From Isoetes taiwanensis (taxonomy: Eukaryota; Streptophyta; Lycopodiopsida; Isoetales; Isoetaceae), in NCBI GenBank assembly GCA_021234155.1, contig JAJEKV010000015.1:11864101-11928100 (forward strand): DNA of 64,000 nucleotides. The letters run 5' to 3'. The notes beneath the pieces are model-generated. The model was not told where the DNA came from. It did no database searches and worked only from the letters and a program-made list of their open reading frames with translations. The translations under genes were made by a program, and so were the position numbers. Each line of letters opens with the position of its first letter. Position 1 is the stretch's first letter. Below, piece after piece: positions 11,008-49,581 of this stretch.

Positions 11008-12807
11008 TCAAGCTCGTTTGCATGCAGGCAAGGGAGATCCACACAAACCAGCATTGCCGGCATAGCTAGAGGAATTGAATTTAGCAAGAACACCAACCTG
11101 AGGTATTTTGCCACTCAATTTATTGTATGACAGGTCAAGAAATTCTAGAGACTTAAGGGTAGCAAAAGACTGAGGAATTGACGCAGTCAAATTGTTTCTA
11201 GATAAATCCAGATGCTGCAGGCTAGTTAGATTACCGAGGCTGGATGGAATAGTGCCAGAGATGGAGTTGTGGTCGAGTTTGAGGACATTGAGATACTGCA
11301 TGCGGCCGAAATCGGGAGAGATGGATCCAGAGATGGAATTGAAAGATAGATCGATTACAGCAGGCACAAGTCCGTCTTCAATAGAATAGCCTGGAGGATT
11401 GAGTTTACTCAACCAGTTTGGAATTGAACCCTTCAGTCCACAGTGGCCCAATTCAATCTGAGAAAGACGAGGAATGCTTGCAATACCTTTTATGCTCTCG
11501 AAACTCAGCCTGTTTCCTGTCAGTCTCAACACTAGCAAATTATTCAAACCCTTCCAATCCCCAGTTATGCCTGTGATCTTGTTGTATCTCAAATCAAGCC
11601 GCACCAAGCTCCACAAACTGCTCAGATCCTCCTTAATTGGACCAGAGAGAGAGTTATTAGATGCATACAGTTCCTCCAGGCTAGAAAGGAGCCCAATAGA
11701 GGGCGGAAATGAGCCCGTGAATGCATTGTTCCTGATATCAATGTATGCCAGTTCCGTCATTTGGCTGAATATATCAGGAATTGGACCGGAAAGGCCTGTA
11801 TATGATACCCACAAAACTTCCAGCGATTTTAGGCCTTTGAATGAGGCAGGGATTGTACCAGTTATGCCAGGATTGTTGTGGAGGGCCAAAATCTTTAGAC
11901 TTGATAGGTTGCCTAACGTACTTGGCAATGGCCCTGTTAGATTGTTGTAGTGTAGCCGCAGTATTTGGAGCTTCGATAAATCTCCCAGTGCTGCAGGAAT
12001 GCCCCCATTTAAGAAATTCTGTTCCAGACTTAAGGTGTCTAGATTCTTCAGCAGCCCCAATGTCGCCGGAATGGTGCCAGATAATTTGTTGGAACCTAGA
12101 GATAACTCTTGGAGATTTGTTAGGTTGCCTAATCCCGCCGGAATAGAGCCTGAAAGCTTAGTCCTGTACAATTTAAGAGTTTCCAGATTGGCAAGCCTGG
12201 AAAAATCTGATGGAAAAACACCGCCAAGCCCACACAAATCTTCCCCTTCTGTGGAACTTGTACAGGACAGATCCAGGTGTTTGAGATTAGAAAGGCCAAA
12301 GAATTCCGCAGGGATGGGACCCTTGAGCCCTGTATTGGATGCCAGAAATTCTTCAAGCCCACGGAACGAACTAAAGAATGCCGGAATCGTGCCGGAGAGA
12401 TTGGGATTATCAGAAATAGAGAACTTTTTGAGCTTGGTAAGCTTGAAAAAGGAACTGGGTATTGCGCCATTGAAGCCTTTAGAGCTTGCATCTAGGATTT
12501 CAAGCTCTGTAAGACCTGATACAAGCTCCAAGGTAGAGACTGGCACAATGCTGCTGCCGTCGAAATAATTTTTGGAAATCCAGGGCATATAAAGGCCGAT
12601 TACTCGCCCTGCATCGTTGCAGGTAATCCCCTGCCATTTGCAACAGTTTGTGGTGTTCCATTGCGCGCTAAACTCCCTTAACTCTGATTTGAGCTTCAGC
12701 AAAATATTGCGCTCCGCCGGAGTACATTGAAGAGCTTGAACAGGGGCTGTTATCCCCCACAAAATTAACCCGATTAGGAACAACGCAGGCATCATTCGAA
12801 TAGTCAT
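11008..12807 (-). CDS. secreted leucine-rich-repeat protein (RLP-like, no kinase)
   Basis: Single-exon ORF of 599 aa. Residues 1-25 form a hydrophobic signal peptide (LFLIGLILWGITAPVQA). An LRRNT_2 cap follows, with a Cys pair in TTNCCKWQGITCND (residues about 52-65). About 18-20 plant extracytoplasmic LRRs run from about residue 90 to 570, with repeated LxxLxLxxNxLxGxIPxxLGxL units. The C-terminal cap has GLCGSPLPAC and the protein ends four residues later. There is no transmembrane helix, juxtamembrane region or kinase, unlike LRR-RLKs and typical membrane RLPs, so it should be a soluble apoplastic protein like PGIP/DRT100-type proteins, or an RLP that has lost its anchor. Likely role: ligand binding or protein-protein recognition at the cell surface; the partner is unknown. 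The frame is free of lesions. Antisense ORFs across it are shadows. Confidence 0.88.
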   Translation of the reverse strand: MTIRMMPALFLIGLILWGITAPVQALQCTPAERNILLKLKSELREFSAQWNTTNCCKWQGITCNDAGRVIGLYMPWISKNYFDGSSIVPVSTLELVSGLTELEILDASSKGFNGAIPSSFFKLTKLKKFSISDNPNLSGTIPAFFSSFRGLEEFLASNTGLKGPIPAEFFGLSNLKHLDLSCTSSTEGEDLCGLGGVFPSDFSRLANLETLKLYRTKLSGSIPAGLGNLTNLQELSLGSNKLSGTIPATLGLLKNLDTLSLEQNFLNGGIPAALGDLSKLQILRLHYNNLTGPLPSTLGNLSSLKILALHNNPGITGTIPASFKGLKSLEVLWVSYTGLSGPIPDIFSQMTELAYIDIRNNAFTGSFPPSIGLLSSLEELYASNNSLSGPIKEDLSSLWSLVRLDLRYNKITGITGDWKGLNNLLVLRLTGNRLSFESIKGIASIPRLSQIELGHCGLKGSIPNWLSKLNPPGYSIEDGLVPAVIDLSFNSISGSISPDFGRMQYLNVLKLDHNSISGTIPSSLGNLTSLQHLDLSRNNLTASIPQSFATLKSLEFLDLSYNKLSGKIPQVGVLAKFNSSSYAGNAGLCGSPLPACKRA

Positions 12808-12840
12808 CAGATGGTAATAACATGAGCAATTAAGCAGGCT

Positions 12841-12850
12841 GATTATATAG
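12841..12850 (-). promoter_or_regulatory. possible TATA box of the LRR gene
   Basis: On the minus strand the sequence CTATATAATC ends 34 nt upstream of the ATG at 12805-12807. The position would give a very short 5' leader, so the true promoter may lie further upstream. Confidence 0.35.
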
Positions 12851-12859
12851 AAATTGCAA

Positions 12860-13890
12860 GATAAAGTTCGTCGAAGCTGCTAATATAAAATTCGAGGAAG
12901 GACGTCAGTGAATCGGAGGCTAGCGGTTTGCGTGCGACTATTGCTGAGAGTTACAGGATGTCCGAAAACTTTCCCATTTGTCAAACATGTCAGGAAAAAA
13001 TGCTGATGTCCATCTGCTCATTTTGGCCGTCACAAATATCTTATTCAATCAGGAAAAGAACAGGCTTATTATTTTTGGGAGAATACATTACCAGAATGTG
13101 CTAGGTATCCGGCTGAATTGAGGGGTTTCCGGCCGGTAAACTAGCAGGCAAAGCCACCACAAGCGGCGTTAGCCCCGAGCATCGCCATCGCTTGCCAGTT
13201 TATCGACCGAAAATCCCGAAATCCGGCCGGCTACCAAACGTAAGCCGGTGTTTGGTCAAAATTCCGGTCTTATTTTCCTAGGTTGATTCTTAGGGTTCTG
13301 TGCTGATTCTTGCAAGCAAGGAGGTTTTATTTTGTTGATTCCTGTTGATTAGGGATGGCAAGGTTTCTTGCAATTGCCCAAAAGCTTAGATTTGAGCAGG
13401 ATATCGAAGTGGCGGATTTGCAAATGACACTGCTTCTTGCTCTGCCCCTGTTTCTTGCGAATCTGAAGAATAGATCTCATGTTCTACCCTTGTTTGTTGC
13501 ACCCCTGTTCTACCTTTCTTTGCGGATCTGAAGAACAGATCGCCTGTTTTTTGTGGATCTGAAAAACAAGGGATCTTCAAGCATCGCTCCGAATCTCTGT
13601 TGCCAATGAAGCTCTGAGCTATGAGGAATTTCGATCAAACGATGGTTTACAAGTGTTTATGGCCCTTCAAGCAGGACCAACTTGGAATATCCAAAGTGAG
13701 GCTAAATCCTAGCCATCACGATAGGAACCCTCGAACTAGAATACCACAATATAGAATATGCCCAAATAAATAAAACTTATCTATTGAACACATACTGGTC
13801 AACCTTAATTCCCACATCAAACATACATGTCTCTAACTCAAATACATTAACAATATTTATAACGAATAAATAGCTAATATCAATTTCATA
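12860..13890. other. intergenic; diverged short repeats
   Basis: No gene seen. CCGGCCGGTAA / CCGGCCGGCTAC words lie at 13123-13235. A degenerate repeat of GCGGATCTGAAGAACAGATC type occupies 13410-13570. The interval ends at the inverted repeat of the putative transposon. Confidence 0.4.
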
Positions 13891-13893
13891 AGT

Positions 13894-13918
13894 GGTGAAA
13901 GCATGTAGCTGGGGGCCA
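13894..13918 (+). repeat. left terminal inverted repeat
   Basis: Begins GGTGAAAGCATGTAGCTGGG and continues into GGCCA. It pairs with the inverted copy at 25241-25265 with mismatches at three positions (A/G, C/G, C/A). Confidence 0.65.
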
Positions 13919-14242
13919 GTTTTGCGCTGGCCAAGCACCCCCTAAGCACCCTCCAGACCTTTTTTTTTTTAAATATTTTTAAAATTCGTTTCCCCCGTCA
14001 TGCCCTTCACGTTCTTTGTGCAGCAGAGGCCTGTGCCTTTGCTGTGACCCTAGCTACATCGACCCACTGATCCAAGCAGTACTTCTACATGATGAACCAA
14101 ATGGCTATGATTCCGGCTTCTTTTTCAAACCCTTCATTCATTTCTTTGGATCAAACGGCTGCTATTTGGACGCCTGCCTCTGCTTTTATTTGCTTTCATT
14201 TGGCTTTATTCGGCTCATGCATGGTTTATTTTCTAGGTCGAA

Positions 14243-14674
14243 ATGAGGTTTGCAAGCACTATTGAGGAATTCAATGTTTATAGACCGCCTCAAACGGCCG
14301 GGGATCCGTGAACTTTAACTTGGGCTGATTGCCCCACATCTGATTTTCTTAGTGTTTGGAATCGTGAAGTAAAAGACAATAAGATCAAGCTCCACCAGGT
14401 AAAGCCAGAATTTGTAGATGATTTGCATGATTTGGTGCACAAGATTTATCAGAAAGGTTTAAAGAACAAGGAAGCTAGGACAGTTTTTGTTAGAGCTTTT
14501 GCATGGCAGCACATTCCAATGGCTCTTGCTCATCCTGCAAAATTCATAGTGAATTGGGCTAGATTTGCATGGAATAGAATGCAGCTTTCACAGAGAAATA
14601 CCCAAAAGAGAACTGACATGGAGGAAATTAATTTAAGGAACATTGCTTTGGCTATTTCAGCCTTAGAGGCGTAA
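14243..14674 (+). pseudogene. 5' part of the RING-like element gene, interrupted ORF
   Basis: From the ATG at 14243 the frame gives MRFASTIEEFNVYRPPQTAG, meets one in-frame TGA at 14309-14311, and then stays open to 14674. It includes WADCPTSDFLSVWN, a basic/helical stretch (VHKIYQKGLKNKEARTVFVR) and FIVNWARFAWNRM. Protein-like sequence continues in a shifted frame (TALASLQHDLKEKE, then LVKKVSGILQGYDLVSAIN up to about 14810) with further stops. It likely encoded the N-terminal helical half of the protein whose RING-like domain lies in the next exons. The single TGA plus later shifts indicate decay. I do not recognise the N-terminal family. Confidence 0.4.
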
Positions 14675-14997
14675 TTAGATGTCTTGGACTGCACTTGCTT
14701 CATTACAACATGATCTTAAAGAAAAGGAAACCTAATTGGTCAAGAAAGTTAGTGGGATTTTGCAAGGGTATGACCTTGTTTCCGCGATCAATTTCATTGG
14801 ACATACATGAAATTAGGAAAGATCTAGAAGGCTTGAGAGCCATTTGTCCGTGATGAGGATGTAGCTTTGAAACAAAAAACCATGAGGAATGTGCACTAGG
14901 TCTTTCCCCGCCACAATTTTGAAGAAAAAAAGGAGACGCATATCTCTACAGATTTAGAAGCAGAAATAAGTTAAGTGCAGTAATTTGTTTTAAGCAG

Positions 14998-16601
14998 GAC
15001 AAGCAAGATGACTTGAAAACTAACCTAGGGAACCTGCAGCATTTGAGGTCTTCATTCCTTACCACCACACTGATCAGACCTTCTCCTGGAAACTGGACCG
15101 TTGTAGATGGAACGAGTGGATGTGTAGTTTGTGGCATGGCATTTATTGTCATGCATGTACAGCTACAATGTGGACACAAGTTCCACCTTTGGTGCTTCCA
15201 GAAGTGCATGCAAAATTTGCAATGCAATGTTTGCAATCTAGAGCTGCCAACAGACTTGTATTCAGAGCTTGGTTATCTTAATTTTGTCCCTAACATGGAG
15301 GATGAGGAAGATAAAGATACTGAGACTGCAGCCACTAAAGGTACATGCAGTATTAATAACGATGAACATGTTGAATCTCCTCAGAAATTACAAGTGCGGA
15401 GACGTCCACAAACTCGATCCATGACAAGCCCTTTGAAAGGTTAGTTTTATATTCTTTATTTTATATTCAATAGTGCGGGTTGTTTAGTTGCATGTATGCA
15501 GCGCAAGAGAAACGTAACAAATGGTTAAAGAAGGCGCATCTTGAAGACGAGGGATTTGCTGAAAATGAAGAAGCTGATTTGGAGCAGCAGGTTTTGAGTA
15601 AGTGTTTAATAGTCAGTTCGATATTTTGTTGCATTTGTATTAAGACATAAGCAGGTCTGGAAGATAATTCGAGAGGCGTGGAAGAAGTTGCGGGCAAGGA
15701 AGCATCAACGGATAAAGTTTCTCAAAAAGATAAACTGCCTTACCCTTTCATTATGTGGACTAGTGGTTTCAGACTAGTGGTGTCAGACTAAGAGAAATTG
15801 CAGGAAATGAAGTTGTGCTGGGCGAGGAAGCATCACATGATGAAGCTCCACTAGAGCAAGCAGCAGCTGTTGAAGCTCCAACACAACAAGCAACCACCAA
15901 AAATGTTAAAGTTGGAAGAAAGGGCGTACCAAAACATTTCAGACCTTCAAATAGTTGTGATGCACCTGCTACAAGACAAAATCAAAAAAAGGTAAGGAAG
16001 CCTAGGGTCAATCAGAAGAATAAGAAGTCTACGAGCAGTGGAAAAATTATGGATACTCAACCAACTGCTGCTCCTGCAAGCACGAAGAAGAGTTCAGATG
16101 CTATACCAATTGCTACTTTGGATACAATAGGTTAGTACAGATAGATCAATGTTTTATTTCAAAACTTCAATTACATTAGCATGTATGTGAATGGCAAATA
16201 CAGGTGGCTCGTTTCAAGCAGAGTCCTGGAACTCTAGCCAAATTAAGAAATTGTGGTTTCCAACCCAGGTAGCTAATTGGCCAAGTACGAACCAGAATCC
16301 ATTTGGTTATACAAATTTTCATGCTCCAATTTGCAACTTTACCTTTGAAAGTCCACCTTTTCTTGTTCCAGACACTATTTTACCTTCTGCTACTGCAACC
16401 GATGAAATTCAATCTCCCCTCCATGGTGACAGTCCACCTTTGCATGTCGCAGACCCTATCTTACCCTCTGCTGCAGCTGACCAAGTGCAATCTCCCATCT
16501 GTGGTGACAGTCCACATGTGGCTGCAAATGAATCTGATACGGAAACGAACGCTGACAACGATATGCCTTTGGAGCAATTTACCAGGAATATCAGACTTTA
16601 A
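14998..16601 (+). CDS. RING-like zinc-finger protein, spliced, inside the putative transposon
   Basis: Exons 14998-15439, 15502-15597, 15655-about 15720 (donor unsure), 15804-16130 and 16204-16601. Codons join in phase at the introns after 15439, 15597 and 16130 with GT/AG borders, so splicing is credible. Exon 1 holds GCVVCGMAF, then LQCGHKFHLWCFQKCM and CNVCNLELPTDLY, a C-x2-C / C-x-H / C / C-x2-C arrangement typical of RING-type E3 ligases or related treble-clef zinc fingers. The rest is low-complexity: acidic (MEDEEDKDTE), basic NLS-like (KKVRKPRVNQKNKK) and Pro/Ser-rich C-terminal segments with repeated SPxxGDSP. The stop is TAA at 16599-16601. It converges on the DDE gene and may be a transposition accessory factor. 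A role in ubiquitylation is only inferred. The 5' part upstream has lesions, so this may be a decayed gene. Confidence 0.5.
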
Positions 16602-16607
16602 GTTACT

Positions 16608-16883
16608 ATGTTGTAAATCATCTGTATGTTTAAGTTACTATGTTGTAAATCATCTGGCTAACTTGTTATAAAGCAAAGCGGTTTGCAAACTAAAACAAGT
16701 GTACTCTATGCAAATTTTAAGAATAAAAGGTTGCAAACAGATTTTATGTTGTAAATCATCTGTATGTTTAAGTTACTATGTTGTAAATCATCTGGCTAAC
16801 TTGTTATAAAGCAAAGCGGTTTGCAAACTGAAACAAGTGTACTCTATGCAAATTTTAAGAACAAAAAGGTTTTATCCAGATTT
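16608..16883. repeat. 138-bp tandem duplication, 3' flank of the RING-like gene
   Basis: Two nearly identical units starting at 16608 and 16746, differing by a few substitutions and one A insertion. Each unit contains an internal doubling of ATGTTGTAAATCATCTG. It begins 6 bp after the stop codon, so it would lie in the 3' UTR. Confidence 0.85.
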
Positions 16884-17389
16884 TGCCTTAAGGCAGACAA
16901 AAGGTTAAGAACAGATGTTTCAAGAAATAAAGTTTGATAAATACTTAAGGCATGCAAATGGAATTGATTTACTTCAAGGGCATTTTCGAACCTTGATGTC
17001 AAAGGGCAAGTTATATCATTCCCTCATCTTTAAAAGTGGAGTTGGTACTGAACACATTACAATCTAATTTCATGCTGGGATATATGCTGTGTGTAAACAT
17101 AAAAGCCACTAAATTATATGTTCAAATGGATTCATTGACGTAAGGCCTGATAAAATTATGTCTATTATTGTTCTTATCCTGTATACAGATGTCTATTCTC
17201 CTGGTAAACTGTCGCTATCAGCAACATCGCCCCAGTAGTTTCGCTAGTTACCTTGCATATATTCTAATTCTCCATAGTTTCTCTAAGGCATTGCAATAAT
17301 TCCCCATATTTCCTATAACGCATTGCAAAAAATACCATGATGGCACAAACATTTCCACCTTATCAAACACGGCTTTACACGGCTAAACA

Positions 17390-18040
17390 GCTATTAATAT
17401 ATTCAATTTGAACAGAGAACAAAAACAGATTTAGTTTATCAACAGCTTTACACGGCTACACAACTATTTGAAGATCAAAAACAGATGACTATTACTTTAG
17501 AGTCTAGCTTAGCCAGCACAAACATTTAGAGGCATAACTTCAGAAATGGCTAGCTTTAGAGGCCTTTGCCTTAGCCAGCACAAACATTTCCATTTTACTT
17601 TATCAAACATTTCCATTTTACTTTATCAACAACTTTATAAGCCTACACGGCTATTATTCTATTCAATTTGAACAAAGAACATCTATTAATATATTCAATT
17701 TGAAGAACAAGAACAGATACACGGCTATTACTTTAGAGGTCTAGCTTAGCAAGCACAAACATTTAGAGGCCTAACTTCAGAAATAGCTAGCTTTAGAGGC
17801 CCTTGCCTTAGCCAGCACAAACATTTCCATTTTACTTTATCAAACATTTCCATTTTAACAGCTTTACAAGCCTACACGGCTATTACTATATTTTACTCTA
17901 TTCAATTTGAACAAAGAACAAAAACAGATACATGGCTATTACTCTATTGAATTTCATCATGGATCAAAATGCTTAATGTGCATAATCAGTGGACAAGAAA
18001 TGGCTAGCTTTAGAGGCCTTTGACTTAGCCAGCCAGCCAA
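17390..18040. repeat. imperfect tandem/dispersed repeat cluster
   Basis: The words GCTTTACACGGCTA, CACAAACATTTCCATTTTAC, TTTATCAAACATTTCC, GCTAGCTTTAGAGGCC and TATTCAATTTGAAC recur in shuffled order three to five times. This is the junction zone between the two convergent genes of the putative element. No ORF is present. 16884-18400 is otherwise non-coding, AT-rich sequence. Confidence 0.7.
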
Positions 18041-21019
18041 TGAATATATTAATACAATAATGCAACTAAAGTACAGTTGAGCATCCTACAAGAAGAAAGA
18101 ATAATGAAAAAAATTATGTCAATGTTTCTATCCTGTAAGTAGCCTAAAGCTAAAAGTGGCCCGCAAAATATACAGAAATTCTAGCCTCTGGGGAACGAAA
18201 TTTTGAAGCTGAAAATGTCCAAATGCGGACATAAAATCTGTATTTTCCTTACGGCATACATGATGCAAGCACTTGATTCTAGCTCTGCCCAAACTCAAAA
18301 TTTATGACAGCAAGCTCGTGAACTATTTCTGTGTGAACCTGTACCTCAAAAATTATGACAGCAAGCTTGCCATTCCCCTGCACAAGACTTGTGAACTATT
18401 TCCTCCAAACTATTTCCTACAAACTATTTCCTCGTGTTGCCTGCAAAAATAATTTGAATATGTAACAAAAATTTGAGAAGCATACAACAAGTTGAAAAGA
18501 TGCCAGAAATTATAACAACCTTTGGAATTAGACTTCCTTCTAAGTGTCTTAGACTTCCTTCCAACCGTCATCTTCTTATTAATCTTCCTTGCAACTGTCG
18601 TGTTATTACTAACCTTCCTTGCAATTGTCTTCTTTTTTCTAGCTACTACCTTCTTCCGCACAGCATTTAGAATCTCTTCTCTTCTCTCAATTGTATTCTT
18701 GCTTGTCTTGGAGCTGCCAAGAGCTAATGTCTCAGAATCTGGTGGTGGCAAGAAATCCATGATATGCTCGTGTGTTGGTAGAGGTAAATGGTAGACATTA
18801 TCTTCACCTGTATTCTATATTTGCAGATATTACGAGATGCGAATAGCAATTCACATCTGGCATATGGGTTAACAACTCGTATCTACCTTCTCCAATATAC
18901 TTGTAATACTTGCCGGTAAGAATGACCTCTTGTCTACTGAATTTTGATCCCCAGTGATCCTTGAATGTTGTTTCCACTATGTGTTTAGGTTCGGTGCATT
19001 TAACAATCCAGAAATCAACATTCTCTTCATTATTGGCTTCCGCATTGATGACGAAATTGTCTCCAACTTGTACAAGTTCCGCTTTCCACTGATTATCTCC
19101 TTCATACTGTTTCAATCTCTTTATGTGCTTGCACCTGTTCCATAATCCCATCCAGCAGCTAGTGCAAAAGCAAGATATAGGTCTGTGGGCCACCATGGTA
19201 GGTTTGTTTTGGCAGATTGGCCTGATAGTGTTGAATGTTTTTTGTGCCCTTCAAGGTGTCACAGTCATATGTCACTTCCCTACAAACCTCACCTAACTTT
19301 ATGAGCCAAAATACCCTGAAGACATTCATCATAATAGCATTAAAAACACGTATATATGTGCATGCTTCTAAATTTCTAGAATTTGATCATACCTAGTGAT
19401 TAAGTTGTCTTTCACACCTCTTTTCACTTGGAAATACAAAATCAAAAATTGTACAACGTCCTCTGCATTCCTTAGAGGCGTGCTCTCCCTCTTCAACATT
19501 TCAGCTGTAAGTATTCTCTTTATGACGGCACCAGCACCGTCATGCTCCCCGTTGCCATGGCAAGATGCAAAGAAATTCCACGATATCTTTATTGCATTAG
19601 ATTGATAAAATCTTCCTAAGTGATAAAAGGATCTAGAGGACTTGAATTGCGTTGCGCAACCATCAGACCAGAAGACATGGTTTGTGTAGCATATACCTTT
19701 TTCCTTCAAATAATTGGCATGCTTCTGTAGGCAGTGTTGTACGAATAAGCTATCATGCTTTCGATCATCTGATATGTAAAAGTGAGTCTCTTTCACCAAC
19801 TTACGATCGCCAATTGAAAGATTTGGAGTCTCGTCTTTCTTTGCATGTCTGTAAGTAATGTGCACTAGTATAGAAACTGATCATTCCTCCAATGCATCGT
19901 CTGGATCTCCTGCTGAATTTTGAATGTATAGTTCTCAGCAAAGTCTATAATAGATACAACAGTATCCTCTGGAAATGTTTGCAAGCATTCCCTAAATTGA
20001 TCTGCCTGCCACCTTGCCGTATAATTATGGGGGATGAATTGTTTGATAACTGCATCAGCATGCTCCATAAATTCATGTACTGACGTGCTCTTATAAGCCA
20101 ACTTCATAACATCCTTCGTGGTGACTACTAGCTTCTCCCCTTTGCCTGTATCTTTTACGTGAGTTTCTGTTGTCTGCAATGTAAGAGCAAATGTAAAGGT
20201 CATAATCATATTTCTTAAGTTCACATTTAAGAAAATCAGTGCAGCTAATTAATTGAAGCTTATGTCAACCATACTAGGCAGTAGCTACCACTCTGGTTCC
20301 CATGTCTCTCTCTTTGCTTATTGGTTCATATCTTGTGGTTAGATAACAATTTGAAAGACACTAGAGAGCATAGATCTGAAAGAAGGCAACAAACTGCCAT
20401 GAACAACCTTTTCTAAATATCCACTCAAGTTACCACGTTTCAGCATATTTTGCAACAGCAATAAATACTCTTGTTTAGCAACCCTAAGTGTCCATAAGCG
20501 GATCCCTGGCAATAATTTACTGAGCTACCCTGCATGCATGTCTTATCCATATGTAGCAAAATAACAGGGGGTTTCTTTTGTATTTTTATACTTTTTTCCT
20601 TAAGGTTTTTATATGATTTGATGACGGTATTCCATGAGACATACTAATCGGTACAACTAGAGTGCACATATGTTGGCATTGATTTTGGTGCCAGTTTCCA
20701 ATGGTTCACCTATGAATTTCGAAAGCTGAAGCATGCAGGGCTCGACCTAATCCATTTTAGGGTTCTATGTTTTCGTGCAAAATCTCTTTATTAAAGCAAG
20801 ACCCAAGAAGGCCAAGGAACTTTGCATACAGGTCGCTTTTCTTTGATTTGTGTAGCCGAATGCAGAGCCGAAGAAGCATAGCAGAGCAGAGCCGAAGAAG
20901 CAGAGCCAAAGGATGGGCTCTATTCTGTTTACAGCCCTTTTATTTCTTCTGCCCCTTTTTCTTTTTCTGGCGATGATGTGTGGTCAGACTCAAGGAGGGC
21001 AGACACAAGGAGGTAAGAC

Positions 21020-21505
21020 TTACCGTTTTTTACAGAGGGATTCTATGGAGCACACCTGCTTTTGATATGTCGAATCAGGCACCGCTCTGTTGGCAACTAT
21101 CCTGGCTAGCCAGCCCGCAGGGCCCCCTTTTTTTTTAATTCTATGATTGCTGTGGTGAGTTTCAAGCCTTTCATTTTTTGATTCGACACAGATGGGTTCA
21201 CTGCTTTGTCTAGACATAGTTATATTGCCCTGGCTTTCGGATTCTGTCTCCCTGCCAGAATACTCAGATCCGCTTGCAGCAGAGGACCCAATAACTGCAC
21301 CGAAAATTGCTCTCACCTTCTTGCTATCCCTCGTCCCAGGCCTAAACTCTCCAAGCAAACCACAGGAACGCCCATTTTCTTCCGACCCAGCATTCGATTC
21401 TTCATCATCCTCCCTGCTGCTGCATTCTTTGGTCCTCTTCTTCCTCGCAGGCATTGATTGACATCTTCTAAATTGCAATGCGTTTGTATTAACCCTTGGA
21501 TCCAC
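21020..21505 (-). other. 161-codon ORF inside the DDE gene's large intron
   Basis: Open minus-strand frame rich in Ser, Glu, Arg and Lys (MPARKKRTKECSSREDDEES, AASGSEYSGRETESESQGN). It is low-complexity without a recognised domain. It sits within the 3.4-kb intron of the DDE-like gene. It could be a relic exon of another gene carried by the element or chance. A plus-strand frame over the same bases is less protein-like. Confidence 0.25.
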
Positions 21506-22965
21506 CCCGGAATGACCTAAAACTAGCCACTTCGATCCAATTGTTTCTATTTCAGGTAAACTCTTTCCAGAAACCTATGATTTTTACTACCCGTCTTTGA
21601 TTCCGAATCTTATGTTTATAGGCAAATTTTCTCCAGAAACGTGCTATTTACTGTGGCATTACACATTTTTCAATACCTAGAAGTATATCTGCTAGACTGC
21701 TTGATCATTGTAGAGCAGGGTTATCATGCTTTATTGTATTTTAAGGCAACGCCATGAACTGTGGAAGACTTTGATGTAGATGTAATTGTTGCTTTATATA
21801 TGCCTGCTAGATATAGACTTAAATTTGTTTTTCTTTTAACAGCATGGAATGTTTCGAGGGTGCAAAAACTGTGAGACTCCTGGGTCATCATGGGAAGTAC
21901 TTATATGCTGATGAGGATCAGACCAATGTCTCTCAAGATCGTGATGTTAGTAGCGAAATGGCAATCTAGCATGTTGAACATGTTCATAACACTACAAAAA
22001 TAAGGTTAAAAAGCTGTTACCATGGTTACTTAGCAGCCTGCAGTTCTCCTTTTCTGTTTGGAATGACTGGCAAGAAAGTATTGTTGAGGAACTTAACGTT
22101 GACGAGGAGGATTTTATAGTCTGTGGATGCATTCCAGGGACCAGAAAACTTTATCCGTTAAGATTGGAACTTCCACCAAACACAGCTCCAATGCTATTAC
22201 TGTAGTCAAAGCTTCTTCACCAGGTTCTTCTTCCTTGCTCTTGTTCTGCATGGGCTGCTGTATACCCTTGGCAATGCAAAAGTGTGTTAGTTTATTTCCT
22301 AGACTAGGCACTTGCTTTTACAAGAGCAGTAGTATGTTGCATTCTAGTATTTGCATTGCCAGACTAAATGGCGTTACTCATTTTATGAGAATTTGGATGT
22401 TCTGACATATTCTTTCTTTTGCAGAATTTAAGGACTTACGTAGTATTTCCGTGACAAGATGTTGAAGGTGGATTTTGACTTCTGGAAACATCATCATAAC
22501 CTCAATTTACTATTATTATTTTAGATAGTTAACTACTCATTTATGCAGGATTTTAGTGTTCATATGAATATGACTGGGGATATTTCTATAATTTTGTTTA
22601 TGTTTGAAGCTATAGAAGTGTTAACCAACAAATTTTGCATTTTTTGGTGTTTAATATTAACAAATTTCAAAATCCAAATGGGTTGGAAACAAAGGAGCTC
22701 TGGGTGGATTTGTTTTTAGAGTTCCTGGTCCCTAATATTATACTACATATTCTGAGGTTAGCCTATGGATGTGGAGTCTAATGCAGTGTCCATGTTTTGA
22801 AACCATAACAAACAAGTACTTTAACTATGTGGCATATTTTAAAACACTCTCTATAACTTGAGTATGTGATTTGGCAAATTCTAAAATGCTTTTTATAACT
22901 TGAGTATGTGGTGCAACACCTCAGTTTTTTTTCAATGCGTTCATCTTGTTTTCTTTGTCTGATTT

Positions 22966-23095
22966 TGTTAGGGCCCGAAGGGCCCAATTTTTTTTTTTTT
23001 AACTACCAACATGTAATTAACATTATTAACACAAGCCCATAAAGTTTTCCTATGTTTGCTTTAGTTAGGGCCCGAAGGGCCCAAATTTTTTTTTA
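22966..23095. repeat. duplicated GGGCCCGAAGGGCCC motif with poly-T
   Basis: GTTAGGGCCCGAAGGGCCCAA occurs at about 22968 and 23065, each followed by an 8-13 base T-run and an AACAATTAACAC-type stretch. The unit is about 97 bp and diverged. GGGCCCGAAGGGCCC can form a short hairpin. It lies in the intron of the DDE-like gene. Confidence 0.7.
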
Positions 23096-25240
23096 ATATA
23101 ACAATCAACACACAACTACCATTATCATTATTAACACAAACCATTGCATTTAATACATTTAAATTAAAATCCCCCTTAAACCCCCTTTGGTTTGGGTGCA
23201 TATTCACACGGGGGGTTACTCCGGGCAACGAGAGCTGTCGGATGGGCATATGTGCCCTTTATTCCTTTATCTGGACCGTACATAGCGATCCTCGTTTGTG
23301 GGGTATGCATGTACAAGTTTTTGTATACTGTATATTGAGATTTACAAAATACTATAAGGATTGAGAGAATGTACCCCTATGCAAGCAACACTTACAGCAA
23401 CAACTTTATAAATACTTAAAAATATGCTACCTTATAAGATCAAATAACCTGAACGACCTAGTTGAGCATCCTGCAGATCTACAAACTCTAAAGATCAAAG
23501 AAAAGAATATCAATGCATGTAACTAATTGAATGCTCACCTTCTCGAAGTTCTTCCAATCAAGCTTGATTGACTTGCTCCTCTCTTTGGGACATCTTTGGA
23601 ACGATTTCAGTCCACAAGCATTACAATCCATGGTCAAACATGTAGACTTATACCAAGCTGCTGACTCGTCCTTAGGACACACCATAGTTTTCCACATTTC
23701 ACTGGTGCTGTTGAAAGTATGATTGCTCGCTGCACATATTGGGCCTGGACCACAGATATTACATTTGCATGTACTCCTAACACCATGCATGTTAGAATCT
23801 CGTCTTAGCTTGTTGATTGCCTGCCTATTCGCATGTGGTATATGCAGCAGCAGGTCTCCCTCTCTTTAAGCCTTTTTACAAACTTAGGCTTCAAAGTCTC
23901 GAACAACCTGAGACCTATTTTCATGTCTGGATATTGATGCTTAAACCTCCTATAAAACGTGACCTGAAATGTAATAAACAATATAAGACAGAGAGAAGCT
24001 TTTTATTGTGAAAACATAGAAGCATTTACATACCTGACTCTCCTCCAAAAAATGAAGTGGCTGTAGGTTATAAGGCTTGGGAATATTATTTCTCCTCAAT
24101 TTCATAACTTGCCTTTTATTTGGGCATATCCTAGTTTCAGAAAGTTGTATACCTTCTCGCGATCTTCATCCGATAGTCTATCAGATCTGCATTTCCTTTT
24201 GAACATAGACCACGGGCCTCCAAATTCAGTAAACTTCCTCCTGTCCAATGCGGCATAGACAGCCTTTCTTCTCATGTTCAAAACCTTTGCAACTGCTGAC
24301 CGATTGGTAGATCCATTAACTGCCATCATCAAGGTGGATGCTCTTGCTTGATTGATGTCTTGTGTCCTAGCACGCTTATTAGCTTCAAGAGTTTCCTTCA
24401 TATTCTCAACAACATGTTGGTACACTTGTAATTTCTTGTTTCCAATGATCCCAAACTCAGGTAGGTGTTCAGCTGCCCTGGATATGATTTCCTGTCTATC
24501 AGCAGGATGTACCTTGAGGCAAACCTTGTTGATGTGATCAACAATAATTCTAACATGTTTTTGTTTCTGCCTGGTAGTCAGCCTTTCCTTCACCTTGTTT
24601 GTTTCTAAAGCCAACTTTTTAGATTCCCTCTTCCTCTTTCTTTGCAATTTCCTTTTAGCAGATAAAATTCTTCTGCATGCAGTATTAGGAGAAATGCAAT
24701 TGCAAACTTTCTTGCACTCAACCAAACATACCTGAGGGGTTTCAGGAACCTTGTCATCAAGAATTGGAGATAAGACAATCTCAGACATGTCTGCATTGAT
24801 GGGATTTCGAAATTGCATGCCATTGCAACAATCTTCCTCTTCATCCACACTAAAATTTGGAATTCTATCTTGGATGTCAATTCCCAAAGTAGAAGCAAGC
24901 TCTTCTGGATCTTGGCCTCCAAATCGAGTGGCAAATTCGGCAGCATACCTTGCAACCAGATCCATTCACATCCAAAAATGAAAAAATGACATAACCAAGA
25001 ATTGTCCATTCGATTTGGAGCCGGCAGAATCGGGAAGAGCGGGAGACCTAGCCTCTGAGTCTGGATCAATGACATGGCCAACTAACTTCCTAAATTGGGG
25101 GAGGAATTGAAGTTCTCTCCTCCCGGGCTGGCCCTAAGAAATACGAACGAGACGTCAAAACCTAGTTCTGAAGGGCCCGAAAATATTCATGGGAAAGTAC
25201 CAAGCACCCCCAAAGCACCATATGTCATTGACAAAAAAAA

Positions 25241-25265
25241 TGTCCCCCACCTACACGCTTTCACC
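25241..25265 (-). repeat. right terminal inverted repeat
   Basis: Read on the minus strand it begins GGTGAAAGCGTGTAGGTGGG and continues GGACA, matching the left end at 22 of 25 positions. A subterminal direct copy of CAAGCACCCCC(A/T)AAGCACC lies 20-40 bp inward at each end. Confidence 0.65.
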
Positions 25266-25899
25266 CTAAGCTCCTTGAAATCGAACCCAAGCATGCCCAC
25301 AAAGCTAGAAAATTTGAAATCATACTTGTCCAAGAACCTGCTTGAGATTACTAAGCCGACAAGAACGAAGCAAATGAAGTGGAAAAATGGAGAAGCTTAG
25401 AGCCACTTGTGCAACTGAAAAACCCAGAGAGAAGCTTAGCACTGTTTTGAAAACTTTGCAACGAGCGATCTGTTTGCAACAGCCCAGCTAAACCTGGTTA
25501 TAAACCTCAAAGATCTCGCTACCTATTCGGCCAAAATACCAACAGTACAAAATAGCCCTAATCCTACCTTTCCCATACACATCTCCAAAAATCAATAATA
25601 GCAACTTCCATTGATATACGGTTCCTAAACCATTGTAAACTGGGTGCCTAAACCATGGCCGGCTTTCCAAGCTCTTCATTCTTTACAAACATCCTTACCA
25701 AAAGGTCTTGGAGAGTCAAACTCTTTGACTCCTCCTTGGGTTTACAAGCCATATTGTTTGCCCTTCCATAAAAATCTATAGATATAACATAAGATTGTTA
25801 ATAGATAAGGGTGCCTATTCGCATAAAATATGTAAAAATATTTGACGTGCAGAGCGAGCTCCTAGGTTTTGGTCGCGATGGGGTTTAGAGGGTCGAGAA

Positions 25900-35174: not shown

Positions 35175-35726
35175 TCATTTCTCGCCCAAGATTTCAGCAA
35201 TAGTCTTTCTGCCTGGTGGAATGGGAGGCATTTTACCTTCCATACTGGTACCATAATGATGCTCAATGCTATCACATAAATGATAATATTTCTCAACCGA
35301 TTCCATGCAATCCCAAGTGCAAGACATACCCTTTGGAAACATGGCAACATCTCCAGCTCGAAATTCCAAGTATTCTCCATCTGCATTATCGGGATACACC
35401 CTAACCCTTCCTTCAGTAAGATAGCACATTTCAGCCATATCATATTTCCAAGGGAATTTGCTTGCTTTGCAGCTCCATCTTTTCCAAGCAGGAACATCTA
35501 AATCTGCCATTCGATAAGCAGAAGGATTTACCTCTATACGAATGCCATATTTCTCGATCAGATGGGGCGCTGGAGGAGGTTTGGGAGGGTCCTGCATCCT
35601 CCGTCGAGAACTAGCAGACATATCCCTGGTAAATTTATATGCAGAAAAACCCTGTGCCGAACCTCCCATGCCCTTTCCGGCGAGGCCATGGCCGAGCTCC
35701 ACTCCTCTGCTGGCAAAGCGAAGCAT
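35175..35726 (-). CDS. cupin_3 (DUF861, RmlC-like) family protein, probable organelle targeting
   Basis: Single-exon ORF starting at ATG 35724-35726 (MLRFASRGVELGHG), 183 aa. The first 45 residues are Ser/Arg-rich, lack acids apart from a few, and end in SASSRRRMQ, which resembles a transit peptide. From about residue 55 a small cupin_3 domain is complete: GIRIEVNPSAYRMADLDVPA, KFPWKYDMAEMCYLTEGRVR, then GDVAMFPKGMSCTWDC. This matches plant relatives of the EutQ/DUF861 cupins, which are usually about 100-140 aa when untargeted. The family folds as a beta-barrel; the reaction in plants is not established. It lacks the multiple His ligands of oxygenase cupins. The frame is intact and compact, so this is likely a working gene or a recent retrocopy. 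An alternative upstream TTG start is not expected in a plant. Confidence 0.82.
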   Translation of the reverse strand: MLRFASRGVELGHGLAGKGMGGSAQGFSAYKFTRDMSASSRRRMQDPPKPPPAPHLIEKYGIRIEVNPSAYRMADLDVPAWKRWSCKASKFPWKYDMAEMCYLTEGRVRVYPDNADGEYLEFRAGDVAMFPKGMSCTWDCMESVEKYYHLCDSIEHHYGTSMEGKMPPIPPGRKTIAEILGEK

Positions 35727-35739
35727 GTTTCCAAGGCCC

Positions 35740-35754
35740 AAACCCTAAACCCTG
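35740..35754 (-). promoter_or_regulatory. telo-box upstream of the cupin gene
   Basis: AAACCCTAAACCCT lies 14-28 nt upstream of the cupin ATG. Telo-boxes (AAACCCTAA) are common in promoters and 5' leaders of plant housekeeping and ribosomal-protein genes. Confidence 0.5.
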
Positions 35755-36803: not shown

Positions 36804-39800
36804 TCACCCATTAATATTCATAATCCAATTGATGTCGTACAATACCTGTTTAATGATTCTTTCTGGGGGGATTATTTCACAATCAAAGATAAAGGTATTT
36901 CTTCCTTTCCAGATCCTCCAAAGGAGGATATAAATCCTCCAATCAGTCGGGTTGGTAGGCATAAAGAAGTCCTTTAGGCATAAAGCTACCAGGTTTTGGC
37001 CGAGAATATTAGAGGCTAGTTCAAGAACCCATTCTGACCAAAGGCATGATCTAAATAGGTGTTCCTCATCCTCTTTAGCAGCAAGGCATCTGTCACATAG
37101 ATCCGAGTTAGTCATTGATAATCGAAATCTCTTACAATTGGTCGCCAGGCCTTTGTGCCATAATTGCCACATAAAAGCCTTGATCTTTGGGTTGATCGGG
37201 CTCCTCCACATAAAATCCAAGTTCTTTCTGGCTGTGTCAGGGGAGACTCCCCATTTTAGGTGAATAGTGATTTCCTGTTGACTCATCAAGAACCTATAGG
37301 CGAGATTAACAGTATAACCAGTTTTACCTTTGTGATTCCAGGGGTCAGGAGAGTGAGACCAATTGCCCTGCAAGACAATATTAATAATAGCTTCATATAG
37401 CATTCTAGAGTGATTATCCTCTTCAGCAAGCATAGAGTTCTGGAAAAGGATAATGCCATTGTCATCAAAGAGATGGCTGATAAGAGTAATCCCTTTATTC
37501 TTCCATAATTTGGCCTGTTCTGGAAAATGGCAAGCCAGGCATAAGTTAGGGTTATCAAGGATTAAGGCTGGGTTCCAGAAGATGGATTGCTCCATAGAGA
37601 GGCCTTTCTCCCAAGTATACATCTGTCTAACCTCCATCCAAGCATGGATCCATTTCCTGATTAAACCTGGAATAGTCGCAGGGATAGAGAAAGGAAAAAA
37701 GATGGAGTAGGGTAACTCCATTTTGAGGATCCTCCAACCATACGGATGGCATTTGTTGATGTAGTGCCTAATCAAAATTGAAATAGGATGCTTAATTCTG
37801 TCATAACAGGCCCTGTGAAAATATTTGGCAGCTAAAGCTAAACCCTGCTTTCTAATGTTCATGGTACCCAGACCACCATTCTTTTTGGGTTTGCAACATT
37901 CCTCCATCGAGACCGGATGCACACGCAATAAACCTGCCAATAATACTTTGAAGCTTGTTAGTTACCTTTTTGGGGGCCAGAATGACCGAGGATTGGTAAA
38001 CCTGAGAAGAAGATATAACAAAGTTGGCAATTATGGCTCTGCCATTTTTAGAAAGATATTTAGAATTTAAGGAGTCGACTTTTTTATAGAATTTATCAAT
38101 AATATCCAGCCATAGATCAGAGGCATTGCTTCTAATGGCAAAGGGGATCCCTAAAATCTTAGATTTAGTGCAGGGGGGAAAATACTTACAACCAAAGAGG
38201 TCAGCTGCTTGAGTACCTTTGTCGATCTCCCTAGATTGAATGGCAGATTTAAGAGGGTTAATTCTGCATCCTGAAGCTTGACCAAAATCTTGAAGAAATC
38301 TCTGGATGTTGATGATGGAATTATTGTCCATTGAGGTCAAAATGAAAGTATCATCAGCAAAATGTCCGTTGAGAATTTAGTCCACCTGGGGATTGTCAGG
38401 GAGCTGAAGACCTTTAACGGACTTGTTATTCTTGGCATCTTCCAATCTGCTATGTAAGGCTTCCATAACAATTAAAAAGAGAAAGGGTGCAAGAGGACAA
38501 CCTTGTTTTACCCCTCTTTGGATGGAGAAGAAGGGGCTGGTCTCACCATTTATGAGAAAACTGCAGATCTAGAGTTGTTAAGAATAGCTTTAAATATACC
38601 AATGCTTTCCTCACTAAAGCCAAGAGCCCTGCAACTTTTATGAAGAAATTTCCAGCTAACGGTGTCAAAGGCCTTTGTGATATCCAGCTTAAGAAGGGCT
38701 ATATCTTGCTTGGAGTCTTTAGCCCACTGGAGTCCTAGAATAGCAGTCACCACGTTATCCAAGATAAACCTGTCTTTGAGGTAGGCAGATTGGGTACTAC
38801 TAATAACCGAGTCCAAAACCTTTTTGAGTCTGGCAGCAATGGCTCCTGCAATTATCTTGTAAATAACATTAGTTAGAGAGATGGGTCTGTAATCAGCAAA
38901 AGAAGTGGGGAAATCAATTTTAGGGATAAGCGTGATGAGGCTGGTATTGATTCGAGCATCCAGGCGCTTGGTAATTCTGAATTCATTGGCTAACATGGTG
39001 ACACCTTCGTGAAGGATAGGCCAGGCCTTTTTAAAGAACTCAAATGCAGAGGCCATCGTGCCCGTGGGTTTTGCCATTGTCCATACCCATGACCACTTTT
39101 TAAGCTCACACTGCGTGAAAGGGGAGGAGATCATCTCATTCACGCGCTAACTTTACTTTCTAAATTAATAAAGGTATCCATCACAAAGATTCAGGTAATC
39201 GCGATTGGTACCCATAATATTAGTGAAATGATCTACAGCCGCTATCTTGAGATCATTGTCACCAGAGATAATAGAATCACCAACTTTAACCTCATGAATC
39301 TGATTTCTCTTGATTCTGGTTTTGGCCTTGATGAAGAAGTATTTAGAGTTGCATCTTTCGTCTTCTTTTAGCTCCTTGACTTTGGCTTTCATTTTCCATC
39401 CTCTTGCAATGTCGAGCTCTGCTTTTTCAATCTGGATCTTTATTTCATCCCCGCTGATCAATGGGAGGAGCTAAGCCTATTTCTAAGGGAGGCTAAATTT
39501 GCCTGGCTTCGATAGTGGATCTCCTTGCCCCATACTTTTAACCAACATTTGATATGCTTAGCCAGATTAATCCACCACCACATCCAACCACTGTCTCCAG
39601 CAGGTTTGGGATGGCAGTTAGATATGTCTTAGAGCTTGGTGAGGAAATCTTCATGGTCTAGAAGGTTGACATTCATCTTAAAAAAAGAACTTCCTAATAT
39701 TATGAATGTCTATATCACCTATATTAATCAGCTGAGGGTAGTGATCAGAGAGGGTATAGCCAGTAAGATTATCAACCCTACTACTATTGTTCCACAGGTT

Positions 39801-40436
39801 TTCACTGAGATAAAATCTGTCATGCAAGCAGCAAATAGGGTTAGCTCTATGATCTGACCAGCTGAAAGAGTTGGGTTTGGTTGTAGCCAGCCTGAGATTG
39901 TGGGTAGACAGAAGGTTGGCCCAGGCACACATCTCTTGAGGCAGAAGAGGCTTAAAATTTCTATTTTTCATATAGCTGTCAGTAACCATATTGAAGTCAC
40001 CACCTATCAACAAATCATCAATATCTAAGCTGGCTAAGCTAGAGCTAATTTTATTCCAAATCAAAGTTCTGTCAAAAGGATTATGATAAGAGTAAACATT
40101 AACTATAGCAATCTTACCCGACCCGAGCTTGCAAACCAAGATTTGCCATCTACCATTGTTGTCATGAATCATATGGTCAATTTGTAAATCATTTTTCTGA
40201 TTCCATGCAATAGCTATTCCTGCAGAAGAGTCATTAGCACTGATAGACCAAGTCTTAAAATTTGGGGGGAGAGCTCTGGAGATGATGATATTATGGTTGG
40301 GATCATGAATCTTATGCTCCTGGATGAGCAGGATATCAGGGTTGAGGGAAGACAGGCAAACTTTTAAACGCCCCCCCTTGATAGGATTGTTGATTCCCTG
40401 GAGATTCCAGGTGATGATTCTTAAAGATTTATACAT
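36804..40436 (-). pseudogene. LINE ORF2: endonuclease, reverse transcriptase, zf-RVT
   Basis: The N-terminal apurinic-type endonuclease (40436-39678) shows ITWNLQGINN, ILLIQEHKI with the catalytic Glu, LLIGGDFNMV and LSDHYPQLI. After a damaged spacer, 39461-39165 keeps KAELDIARGWKMKAKVKELK and SKYFFIKAKTRIKRNQIHEV. Reverse transcriptase (39143-38340) has SLITLIPK, FADYRPISLTNVIYKIIAG, AYLKDRFILDNV and LLKLDITKAFDTVSW. The FADDT catalytic motif lies near 38348-38362, with a stop just before it. 38340-36804 carries the thumb, then a zf-RVT domain (WRSPINPKIKAFMWQLWHKG, CDRCLAAKEDEEHLFRSC). Frames change several times, so it is inactive. Confidence 0.85.
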
Positions 40437-40751
40437 TAATAATTATAGAAACTTTTTGTCCATCCTAGAACGAATGGTAGAATTTCTGGGGCTGATCCTA
40501 GGATTTTTTCCGGCCCCTGCCTCTTTTATTTGTTATCTGCTTCCATCCTTCATCATCACAAGAATGTAAGAATTCGTCCTCAGGGCTATAATTCACGGAG
40601 TCAACTTCAGATTGGTAATCTTCTTTGAGAGATAAGGAGGGTCATAATACCAGTTTTAACCTTTATCTCCATGTTGATATTCCTAAGGAAGAAATTCCAA
40701 TTATTATCAAAATAAGGAGAGTTAGGCTCGGTATAAAGAGAGAACTCACTT

Positions 40752-48500: not shown

Positions 48501-49581
48501 AGGAATTATAGGCATGTGGCGTAACACCTTTCTTGCAACCTTGGTCTTCCTATCTTCTTCATAACGTGCTTCTTTGCATATTGGACATGCATCATGGTTT
48601 GCATAGTCTTTGCGAAATAAGATACAATCATTGACACATGCATGCACGATGTTATATTCCAGTCCTAAGGATCGTAATAGCTCTCTAGCTTCCCGCCTAG
48701 ATTTTGGAAGACAATGGCCATCGGGTAGTATCTTATCAAGCAAACTATAAAAACATCAAGTAAGCATATCTGTATATGAACCCCGCACCCACACTAAAAC
48801 AAAAGAATGAATTGCATGTACGTACCTGAAAAGTTCGGACACACTACTGTTGCTCCAACCAACTTTGTGTTGAAGATTTAGAATAAGCATACATGTGGCA
48901 AGGCGAGATATACGGGCATTTGGAAACAATGTCGTACTTGCCTCATTATGGAGATACGTTGCCTTATCAATACATGGTTCATCATCTACGTCATTAGCAC
49001 CGTCATTGTTTTCACGACTATTGGGTTCTTGACTTGTTGGGAAAAAAATTGTGATCATATCATGAATTGCCTCCTCACCAACAAAAGTACTTTGCATGCT
49101 AGACTCTTCACTAGGTGACTATATGGCCACATAAAGATGTATAAGAAGTGAATAGAAATGGAAGAATGAAGATACACAATACATGTTACAAGTGACGAAG
49201 AAATTTAGCATTTTCCTTCTATTTGGAACAAATAAAAACAAAAATGATACTCACAGTATTTGCATCATGTTCGAGGTTATTTTCTTCATCAAGTTGCGTA
49301 GGCCGACTACGACATAATCCATACTTTGCTTCATGATCCAATCGAACGCGATATGAACGGCTTGTCTTGCCATTACACCTGTTGCACCAACAAGTGCCTC
49401 GACGAAGGTAGAGAACTTCCGTCGGATCTCTCCTAGCCCTTTTCCTATACCTTCGTCGGGAGAAGGATGATGAATTTGATGAAGAAGACGTTGAAGAAGA
49501 TGATTTGGCTACCTGGCGTGGCAAACAATCATTCCCACTATTGTAGCTACTAGTCCCAGAGCTCGACATTTCATTTGACAT
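45528..49581 (-). CDS. TNP2-like CACTA transposase gene (multi-exon, possibly broken)
   Basis: The gene starts near 49579 (MSNEMSSSGTSSYNSGND). A Ser-rich, Arg-rich N-terminus leads to CWCNRCNGKTSRSYRVRLDH, like the transposase-associated domain. 49097-48830 matches the following spacer (ATYLHNEASTTLFPNARISR). The TNP2 core is at 48743-48150: LPDGHCLPKSRREARELL, YNIVHACVNDCILFRKDY, CPICKEARYEE, NVRLGLGIDGVCPWGS and YNIPPWMATKPGHIMLTLII. It continues at 48.1-47.9 kb and 47831-47190 (LIYLGH-type box, LDPMHIFKNVAHSLWQHL, GLKTHDWHKFLQ). DUF4218-like sequence is at 47013-46830 (SRWMFFLERYMKVLKSFVRQ) and DUF4216-like at 46385-45800 (YVGILTDIIELDYRSF, ETFIHENPNDTKRWIVVHC). Most breaks look like introns. 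The function is excision and insertion of CACTA elements in the nucleus. Activity is uncertain. Confidence 0.75.
45801..45870. repeat. CTTCTC hexamer microsatellite
   Basis: (CTCCTT)n-type pyrimidine tract. On the minus strand it encodes a Glu/Gly/Arg run at the end of the DUF4216-like ORF. Confidence 0.9.

Follow-up and report, generated by a model that had tools for sequence, protein, structure and literature searches.

A 64,000-nucleotide stretch of the Isoetes taiwanensis genome (GenBank assembly GCA_021234155.1, contig JAJEKV010000015.1, positions 11,864,101 to 11,928,100 of the forward strand), which we call the window, contains an inactive cut-and-paste DNA transposon at 13893-25266. 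The element has two convergent genes, one for a predicted RING-H2 protein (gene 1) and one for a putative transposase (gene 2), and it most likely represents a Sola-like lineage, a reading to which we give a probability of roughly 0.7. It is a genuine but broken member of a large, old family. Members of this family have inserted precisely with a 4-bp duplication, have moved in the past, share their ends, and carry two co-occurring genes that are under constraint between subfamilies. The original prediction, made from the letters of the window, was of a two-gene DNA transposon with terminal inverted repeats, and it is borne out by other copies that have both ends, a constant 4-bp duplication, and empty sites.

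We searched the genome (1,658,258,908 bases in 1110 pieces) with the outermost 200 bases of each end. The left end has at least 41 matches (40 of 340 first-look candidates scored) and the right end at least 40 (40 of 88 first-look candidates scored). Sixteen other copies were chosen in which left and right matches lie in the same orientation at most about 20 kb apart, with at least one such pair, C910, left out. Together with the window copy they make 17 copies with both ends, which represent 15 independent sites; the copies of the window/C963 pair and of the C952 pair share flanks.

The ends of the element are well defined. Its left terminal inverted repeat (13893-13917, + strand) and its right one (25242-25266, - strand) agree at 21 of 25 positions; the matched 25-bp ends of the original prediction are real, its count having been 22. 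The first bases are GGGTGAAAGC in 15 of the 17 copies and TGGTGAAAGC in the remaining two, the window copy and the segmental duplicate of it, where base 13893 is T and not the G of the other 15; the final bases are GCTTTCACCC in all 17. The copies match at 19 to 25 of the 25 terminal positions and are 2.4 to 17.2 kb long, nested inserts counted in. Just outside the ends, the window copy is flanked on both sides by TAAG (13889-13892 and 25267-25270), the target duplication that had been suspected. Perfect 4-bp duplications of varying sequence flank the element at 14 of the 15 independent sites, against a chance expectation of 0.07 of 15, and immediately beyond the ends of the 17 paired copies the flanks are unlike between sites. 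The 19 perfect targets known when diverged families are included are 76% A+T, with no evident consensus; TTAA occurs once among them.

Empty sites give further evidence. We joined 90-base flanks and searched the 15 junctions in pools of 8 and 7, six of them a second time. At least 5 of the 15 match uninterrupted genome sequence that has a single copy of the duplication. The C1040a junction matches one locus on C921 at 100% over 180 bases. The others, whose insertion sites are situated in repeats, match at 96-98% (C1074), 98-99% (C1040b), 94-96% (C1047), and 96% over 168 of 180 bases, spanning the junction (C1034). These empty sites confirm the boundaries and the length of the duplication, and the shared ends, duplications, and empty sites rule out a chance inverted repeat.

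Two pairs of copies stand out for their surroundings. The window copy has a relative about 85 kb away (G000:C963:11792676-11804024) that is 94% identical, nested insert included, and window positions 13493-25666 and G000:C963:11792400-11804300 have common flanks and a common duplication; this pair is a segmental duplication. Two copies about 30 kb apart (G000:C952:7477800-7485400 and 7507700-7515300) have common flanks and a TACA duplication and are probably a second case. Two further copies, of 2.4 kb (L020, G000:C985:5816400-5819300) and 3.7 kb (L018, G000:C1047:9199700-9204000), are internally deleted; their ends are intact, perfect 4-bp duplications flank them, and they are probably nonautonomous.

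A short repeat lies inside each end, as originally noted: CAAGCACCCCCTAAGCACC at 13932-13950 and CAAGCACCCCCAAAGCACC at 25201-25219, both on the + strand and thus in the same orientation. Within them, AAGCACCCCCTAAGCACC (13933-13950) and AAGCACCCCCAAAGCACC (25202-25219) are the only two matches to the pattern in the window and lie 40 bases from the left end and 47 bases from the right end, respectively. Both repeats are retained in the 17 copies, with small changes in some. The repeat is a candidate transposase binding site, a role that would suit part of the families.

The two genes each begin just inside an end and face one another, as had been proposed. Exon boundaries were taken from open frames and GT-AG sites, so the splicing is predicted. 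A related copy, C1034, was the guide: its gene 2 is open (1063 amino acids, four exons, GT-AG introns), its gene 1 is open for 574 codons across the first four exons, and its exons are 89-99% identical to those of the window. Gene 1 (+ strand), which encodes the predicted coiled-coil and RING-H2 protein, starts 350 bases from the left end in the window and 380 in C1034. Its exon 1 (14243-15439, blastn with the C1034 exon, 93.9%) is frame-shifted; exons 2 (15502-15597) and 3 (15655-15729) were placed by comparison with C1034, exon 4 (15804-16130) by a match at 15818-16117 with boundaries from GT-AG sites, and exon 5, with the stop codon (16204-16601), by an open reading frame and a putative boundary at an AG site. 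Gene 2 (- strand) starts 301 bases from the right end, with its start codon at 24965. Exons 1 (24034-24965) and 2 (23539-23963), both placed by comparison with C1034, contain by eye a helix-turn-helix-like stretch and a Cys-rich region, respectively; exon 3 (19393-20171) encodes the catalytic core, with the motifs DFAENY (D1), SDGCATQF (D2), and HGNGEHDGAGAVIKR (D3), and exon 4 (18365-19315) the C-terminal part of the transposase.

The window copy is dead, because gene 2 is frame-shifted near 19870 and lacks about 62 bases at 19109 relative to C1034, and gene 1, which could be matched in overlapping pieces only, contains several stops. Its limits were predicted correctly, with one component overlooked: 2.8 kb in intron 2 of gene 2 (20554-23374) are a later nested insertion, foreign to the transposon, which rules out the whole 11.4 kb as one unit. 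The insertion is present in the segmental duplicate and was seen in none of 15 copies at other loci. It is bordered by the near-identical 7-mers CCATATG and CCCTATG and contains a DUF569 beta-trefoil gene broken into two pieces (E values of 5e-9 and 3e-8 in Pfam), and looks like a mobile element carrying a captured gene fragment. GGGCCCGAAGGGCCC palindromes lie within it near 22970 and 23067.

Genome-wide, at least 183 sequences match the exon of the transposase core (144 of 9366 candidates were scored), and full-length matches reach as low as about 60% identity. The conserved acids are D77 (DFAENY), D171 (SDGCA.QF), and E210/D212/E224 (HGKGEHDGAGAVIKRILT.EML). In an AlphaFold2 model of the core, strands and helices follow the RNase H order; D77 and D171 sit at the ends of strands, D212 directly before a late helix. 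Foldseek matches to this model are led by retroviral integrase cores, with Argonaute/PIWI, RuvC, RNase HII, and the Hermes transposase as further matches. The product of gene 2 is thus probably a DDD transposase of the RNase H fold, as far as the model can indicate. The 266-amino-acid core has no Pfam match at E ≤ 5. A match of one of 15 core members to an IFT80 beta-propeller model (7.7e-5) was taken as chance.

Gene 1 can be aligned across about 400 residues in 14 proteins that are 38-86% identical to that of C1034. The C-terminal part has the RING-H2 pattern C-x2-C, C-x-H-x2-H-x2-C, C-x2-C, with two of the 14 rows short or broken there. The Pfam family zf-RING_2 was found in 11 of the 14 at E ≤ 1, the best value (9.3e-4) being under Pfam's cut-off, and a gene 1 profile matched RLIM in the PDB (2.3e-4), followed by RNF38, Arkadia, and other ubiquitin ligases. 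Weak matches to coiled-coil proteins (Pfam, PDB profile) make a coiled coil probable, and we found no convincing Pfam match for the N-terminal region. Altogether, gene 1 probably encodes a RING ligase with a coiled coil.

The two genes are found together well beyond the close relatives of the window copy. Gene 1 has at least 107 matches in the genome, and we compared 91 gene 1 loci with 144 transposase positions, counting no locus again for its secondary pieces. A listed transposase exon lies within 20 kb of 31 of the 91 loci, giving 32 pairs, of which 31 are convergent; in the one exception, the gene 1 lies on C919 and has, in addition, a closer partner that is convergent. Most of the 144 transposase loci are without gene 1 among the matches listed. 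We then have seven diverged families, six chosen for having both genes listed close together and one, C1090, from the transposase list alone. In five of the seven (C40, C980, C1032a, C1018c, and C1090), both ends were found, together with a perfect 4-bp duplication. The scan of these families required or favored a 4-bp match and is therefore not independent evidence for the duplication length; their GGGT inverted repeats, which agree at 24 to 25 of 25 positions, do support the ends. In C40, AAGCACCCCATCAGCAC is present at each end, and C980 retains both subterminal sites. C1090, at 59-62% identity in the core, has ends that agree at 24 of 25 positions, a TAAT duplication, and a convergent relative of gene 1 at 24-32% identity (E down to 2e-32), which is broken in that copy. 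The RING-H2 gene is conserved in distantly related members, facing the transposase gene.

Between subfamilies, the core has a ratio of nonsynonymous to synonymous substitution rates (dN/dS) of 0.10, and gene 1 has ratios of 0.19 and 0.13; between C1034 and the window copy, the core ratio is 0.16. Synonymous sites are saturated, or close to it, between families. These values indicate purifying selection on both genes between subfamilies. Gene 1 identities also follow core identities, with a rank correlation of 0.90 (15 nonindependent pairs, with only 57 amino acids of C1090 gene 1).

In the most likely working of the element, the gene 2 protein would recognize two kinds of sequence, the GGGT... 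ends and, inside them, the subterminal sites AAGCACCCC-N3-AGCACC; it would excise the element and join it at target cuts staggered by 4 bp, using three acids on an RNase H fold. The 4-bp duplications left by insertion would have no fixed sequence. From the opposite end, gene 1 would supply a coiled-coil RING-H2 protein as a long-term companion of the transposase. Most likely this protein either aids transposition or serves as a ubiquitin ligase that acts on the transposase or on the host response.

How should such an element be classified? Elements of the hAT superfamily make 8-bp duplications, Kolobok targets TTAA, and the ends are CACT in CACTA/Chapaev and CACT(A/G) in CACTA/CMC. Target duplications are reported to be 8-11 bp for MULEs, TTAA for piggyBac, 3 bp for PIF/Harbinger, and TA for Tc1/Mariner (PMC10741241). 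The 4-bp duplications found here rule out PIF/Harbinger, Tc1/Mariner, and hAT, and, with the lack of a Pfam MULE match to the core, MULEs as well. The rarity of TTAA (1 of 19 perfect targets) rules out piggyBac and Kolobok. CACTA/CMC is rejected on the GGGT ends and on the lack of a Transposase_21 match to gene 2, a family that does match a separate relic in the same window (47190-48755). The misfit to hAT, CACTA, MULE, PIF/Harbinger, Mariner, and piggyBac in the original prediction was thus well founded.

The features of the element point instead to Sola. It has terminal inverted repeats, a length of several kilobases that exceeds 15 kb in some copies, a 4-bp duplication that is perfect in 14 of the 15 independent insertions, and a probable DDD triad (D77, D171, and D212 in a low-confidence model); proteins with similar motifs are widespread in animals. 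For Sola, a review (PMC10741241) describes a DDD transposase, 4-bp duplications, terminal inverted repeats of 11-1124 bp, and lengths mostly of 2-9 kb with some above 15 kb, and places these elements in Physcomitrella and as seemingly uncommon in flowering plants. Other sources list Sola for Capsicum, Ceratopteris, and Azolla, which makes moss and ferns known hosts, and AT-rich 4-bp targets are reported for Sola2 of amoebozoa (PMC3627910). Since the 4-bp duplication and the probable triad point to Sola, an undescribed superfamily, as originally proposed, is not shown; nor is an animal-type superfamily without earlier reports in plants supported, given these reports from Physcomitrella, Azolla, Ceratopteris, and Capsicum. 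The difference lies in gene 1: the Sola descriptions examined make no mention of a convergent RING-H2 gene apart from the transposase, and in the open-licence literature searched neither this element nor a Sola element with its own RING gene was reported. It is this recurrent RING-H2 partner that looks new.

Several observations weigh against this assignment, or against parts of it. The Sola affiliation was judged by published descriptions of features, and the core has no relative in Pfam, NCBIfam, PDB sequences, plasmids, prokaryote contigs, or viral contigs. The AlphaFold2 model has a mean pLDDT of 54.8, which is low confidence; the best Foldseek match has an E value of 1.6e-3, with none at E ≤ 0.001, and matches of low-confidence models can be meaningless. 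The core model being weak, we count the structure as support, not proof. By the same model, E210 or E224 could serve in place of D212 as the third catalytic residue. One independent site, C1061, has an imperfect duplication (AATA/AACA, one base different). In the scan of diverged families, no ends were found for C994 and only the left end for C1018a; the second half of the subterminal motif is degraded in C1032a and C1018c, and AAGCACCCC was not found in the C1090 stretches examined. Sixty of the 91 gene 1 loci are without a partner among the transposase matches listed, which neither shows nor excludes solo genes, and four close pairs of gene 1 have dN/dS values of 0.33-0.63, indicating therefore weak constraint or decaying copies.

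Some of these points would fit a separate, undescribed DDD/E superfamily of plants that has only the 4-bp duplication in common with Sola and is defined by its GGGT ends, its 4-bp duplications, and a standing RING-H2 partner, perhaps a RING ligase controlling the transposase or silencing. We consider this unlikely, though worth keeping in mind. The core lacks a profile match in Pfam and NCBIfam and any match in PDB sequences, Sola with a separate RING gene is unreported in the literature searched, and the ends and the gene pair cohere across deep divergence. The absence from the libraries says little, since no Sola-named model turned up in the scans, and a 4-bp duplication with a DDD triad is what the review (PMC10741241) describes for Sola, which is reported in seed-free plants. 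Were the separate superfamily nevertheless real, which is doubtful, it might be further marked, in some of its families, by subterminal AAGCACCCC-N3-AGCACC sites repeated in direct orientation, and by a transposon-encoded ubiquitin ligase retained as far as the lineage can be traced and acting on the transposase or host silencing. Far less probable is a place in another known superfamily, whether CMC/Chapaev, Academ, Ginger, or a relative of MuDR. The second gene of maize MuDR, mudrB, is not known to have a RING, and the ends of Chapaev/RAG1-type elements are unlike the GGGT ends. MuDR does resemble our element in having two genes, one beside each terminal repeat, and mudrB, whose function is unknown, is apparently needed for integration, according to two papers (PMC6446971 and PMC8224964). 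MuDR differs in its 8-11 bp duplications and far longer terminal repeats, and our core has no Pfam MULE match; the resemblance concerns how the elements work, not their kinship. RING fingers are likewise described in Chapaev transposases, and a RING open reading frame or motif in a few MULEs; in Chapaev/RAG1-type elements the RING lies inside the transposase protein, whereas here it is a separate gene. The 4-bp duplications are not those of MULEs, the ends are not CACT, and Pfam finds no transposase in the core, though it detects the CACTA relic elsewhere in the window. As for Ginger, with its Gypsy-type integrase, the core has no Pfam integrase match, and weak fold-level Foldseek matches to integrase cores.

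One may also ask whether gene 1 matters to the element at all. It could be a passenger captured from the host, carried along as the element spread and playing no part in transposition. Plant DNA transposons often contain host sequence, many gene 1 copies contain stops, and both the 60 unpartnered loci among the matches listed and the dN/dS values of the close pairs would suit a passenger. Such a passenger would hardly be expected to be convergent with its neighbor in 31 of 32 pairs, to be recognizable at 24-32% identity in C1090, a family chosen from the transposase list alone, to show dN/dS values of 0.13-0.19 between subfamilies, or to diverge in step with the core (the rank correlation of 0.90, with the limits given above). 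We therefore regard a mere passenger as improbable.

The transposon lies among other repeats and possible genes. A remnant of an L1-type LINE (long interspersed nuclear element) at 36804-40442 (- strand) has Pfam matches to endonuclease, reverse transcriptase, and zf-RVT, and the CACTA remnant at 47190-48755 (- strand) matches Transposase_21/tnp2 with a best E value of 3e-27 (Pfam). Roughly 1 kb beyond the transposon's left end, a 623-amino-acid open frame (11008-12879, - strand) encodes a leucine-rich-repeat protein. A Cupin_3 protein and a glycosyl hydrolase 17 piece (35175-35744 and 53518-54234, respectively, - strand) are perhaps host genes.

The group to which this element belongs has at least 183 core matches in I. 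taiwanensis, though the paper on the Isoetes genome (PMC8566536) has neither "Sola" nor "DNA transposon" in its main text as examined. With sharp ends, relatives whose genes are open, and empty sites, the element is suited to annotation and assay. If our reading is true, this would be an unusual transposon, one with a putative ubiquitin ligase of its own encoded in a separate gene. In this the RING-H2 partner is reminiscent of MuDR's mudrB and of the RING in RAG1, and the role of helper proteins in cut-and-paste elements would become testable in another system.

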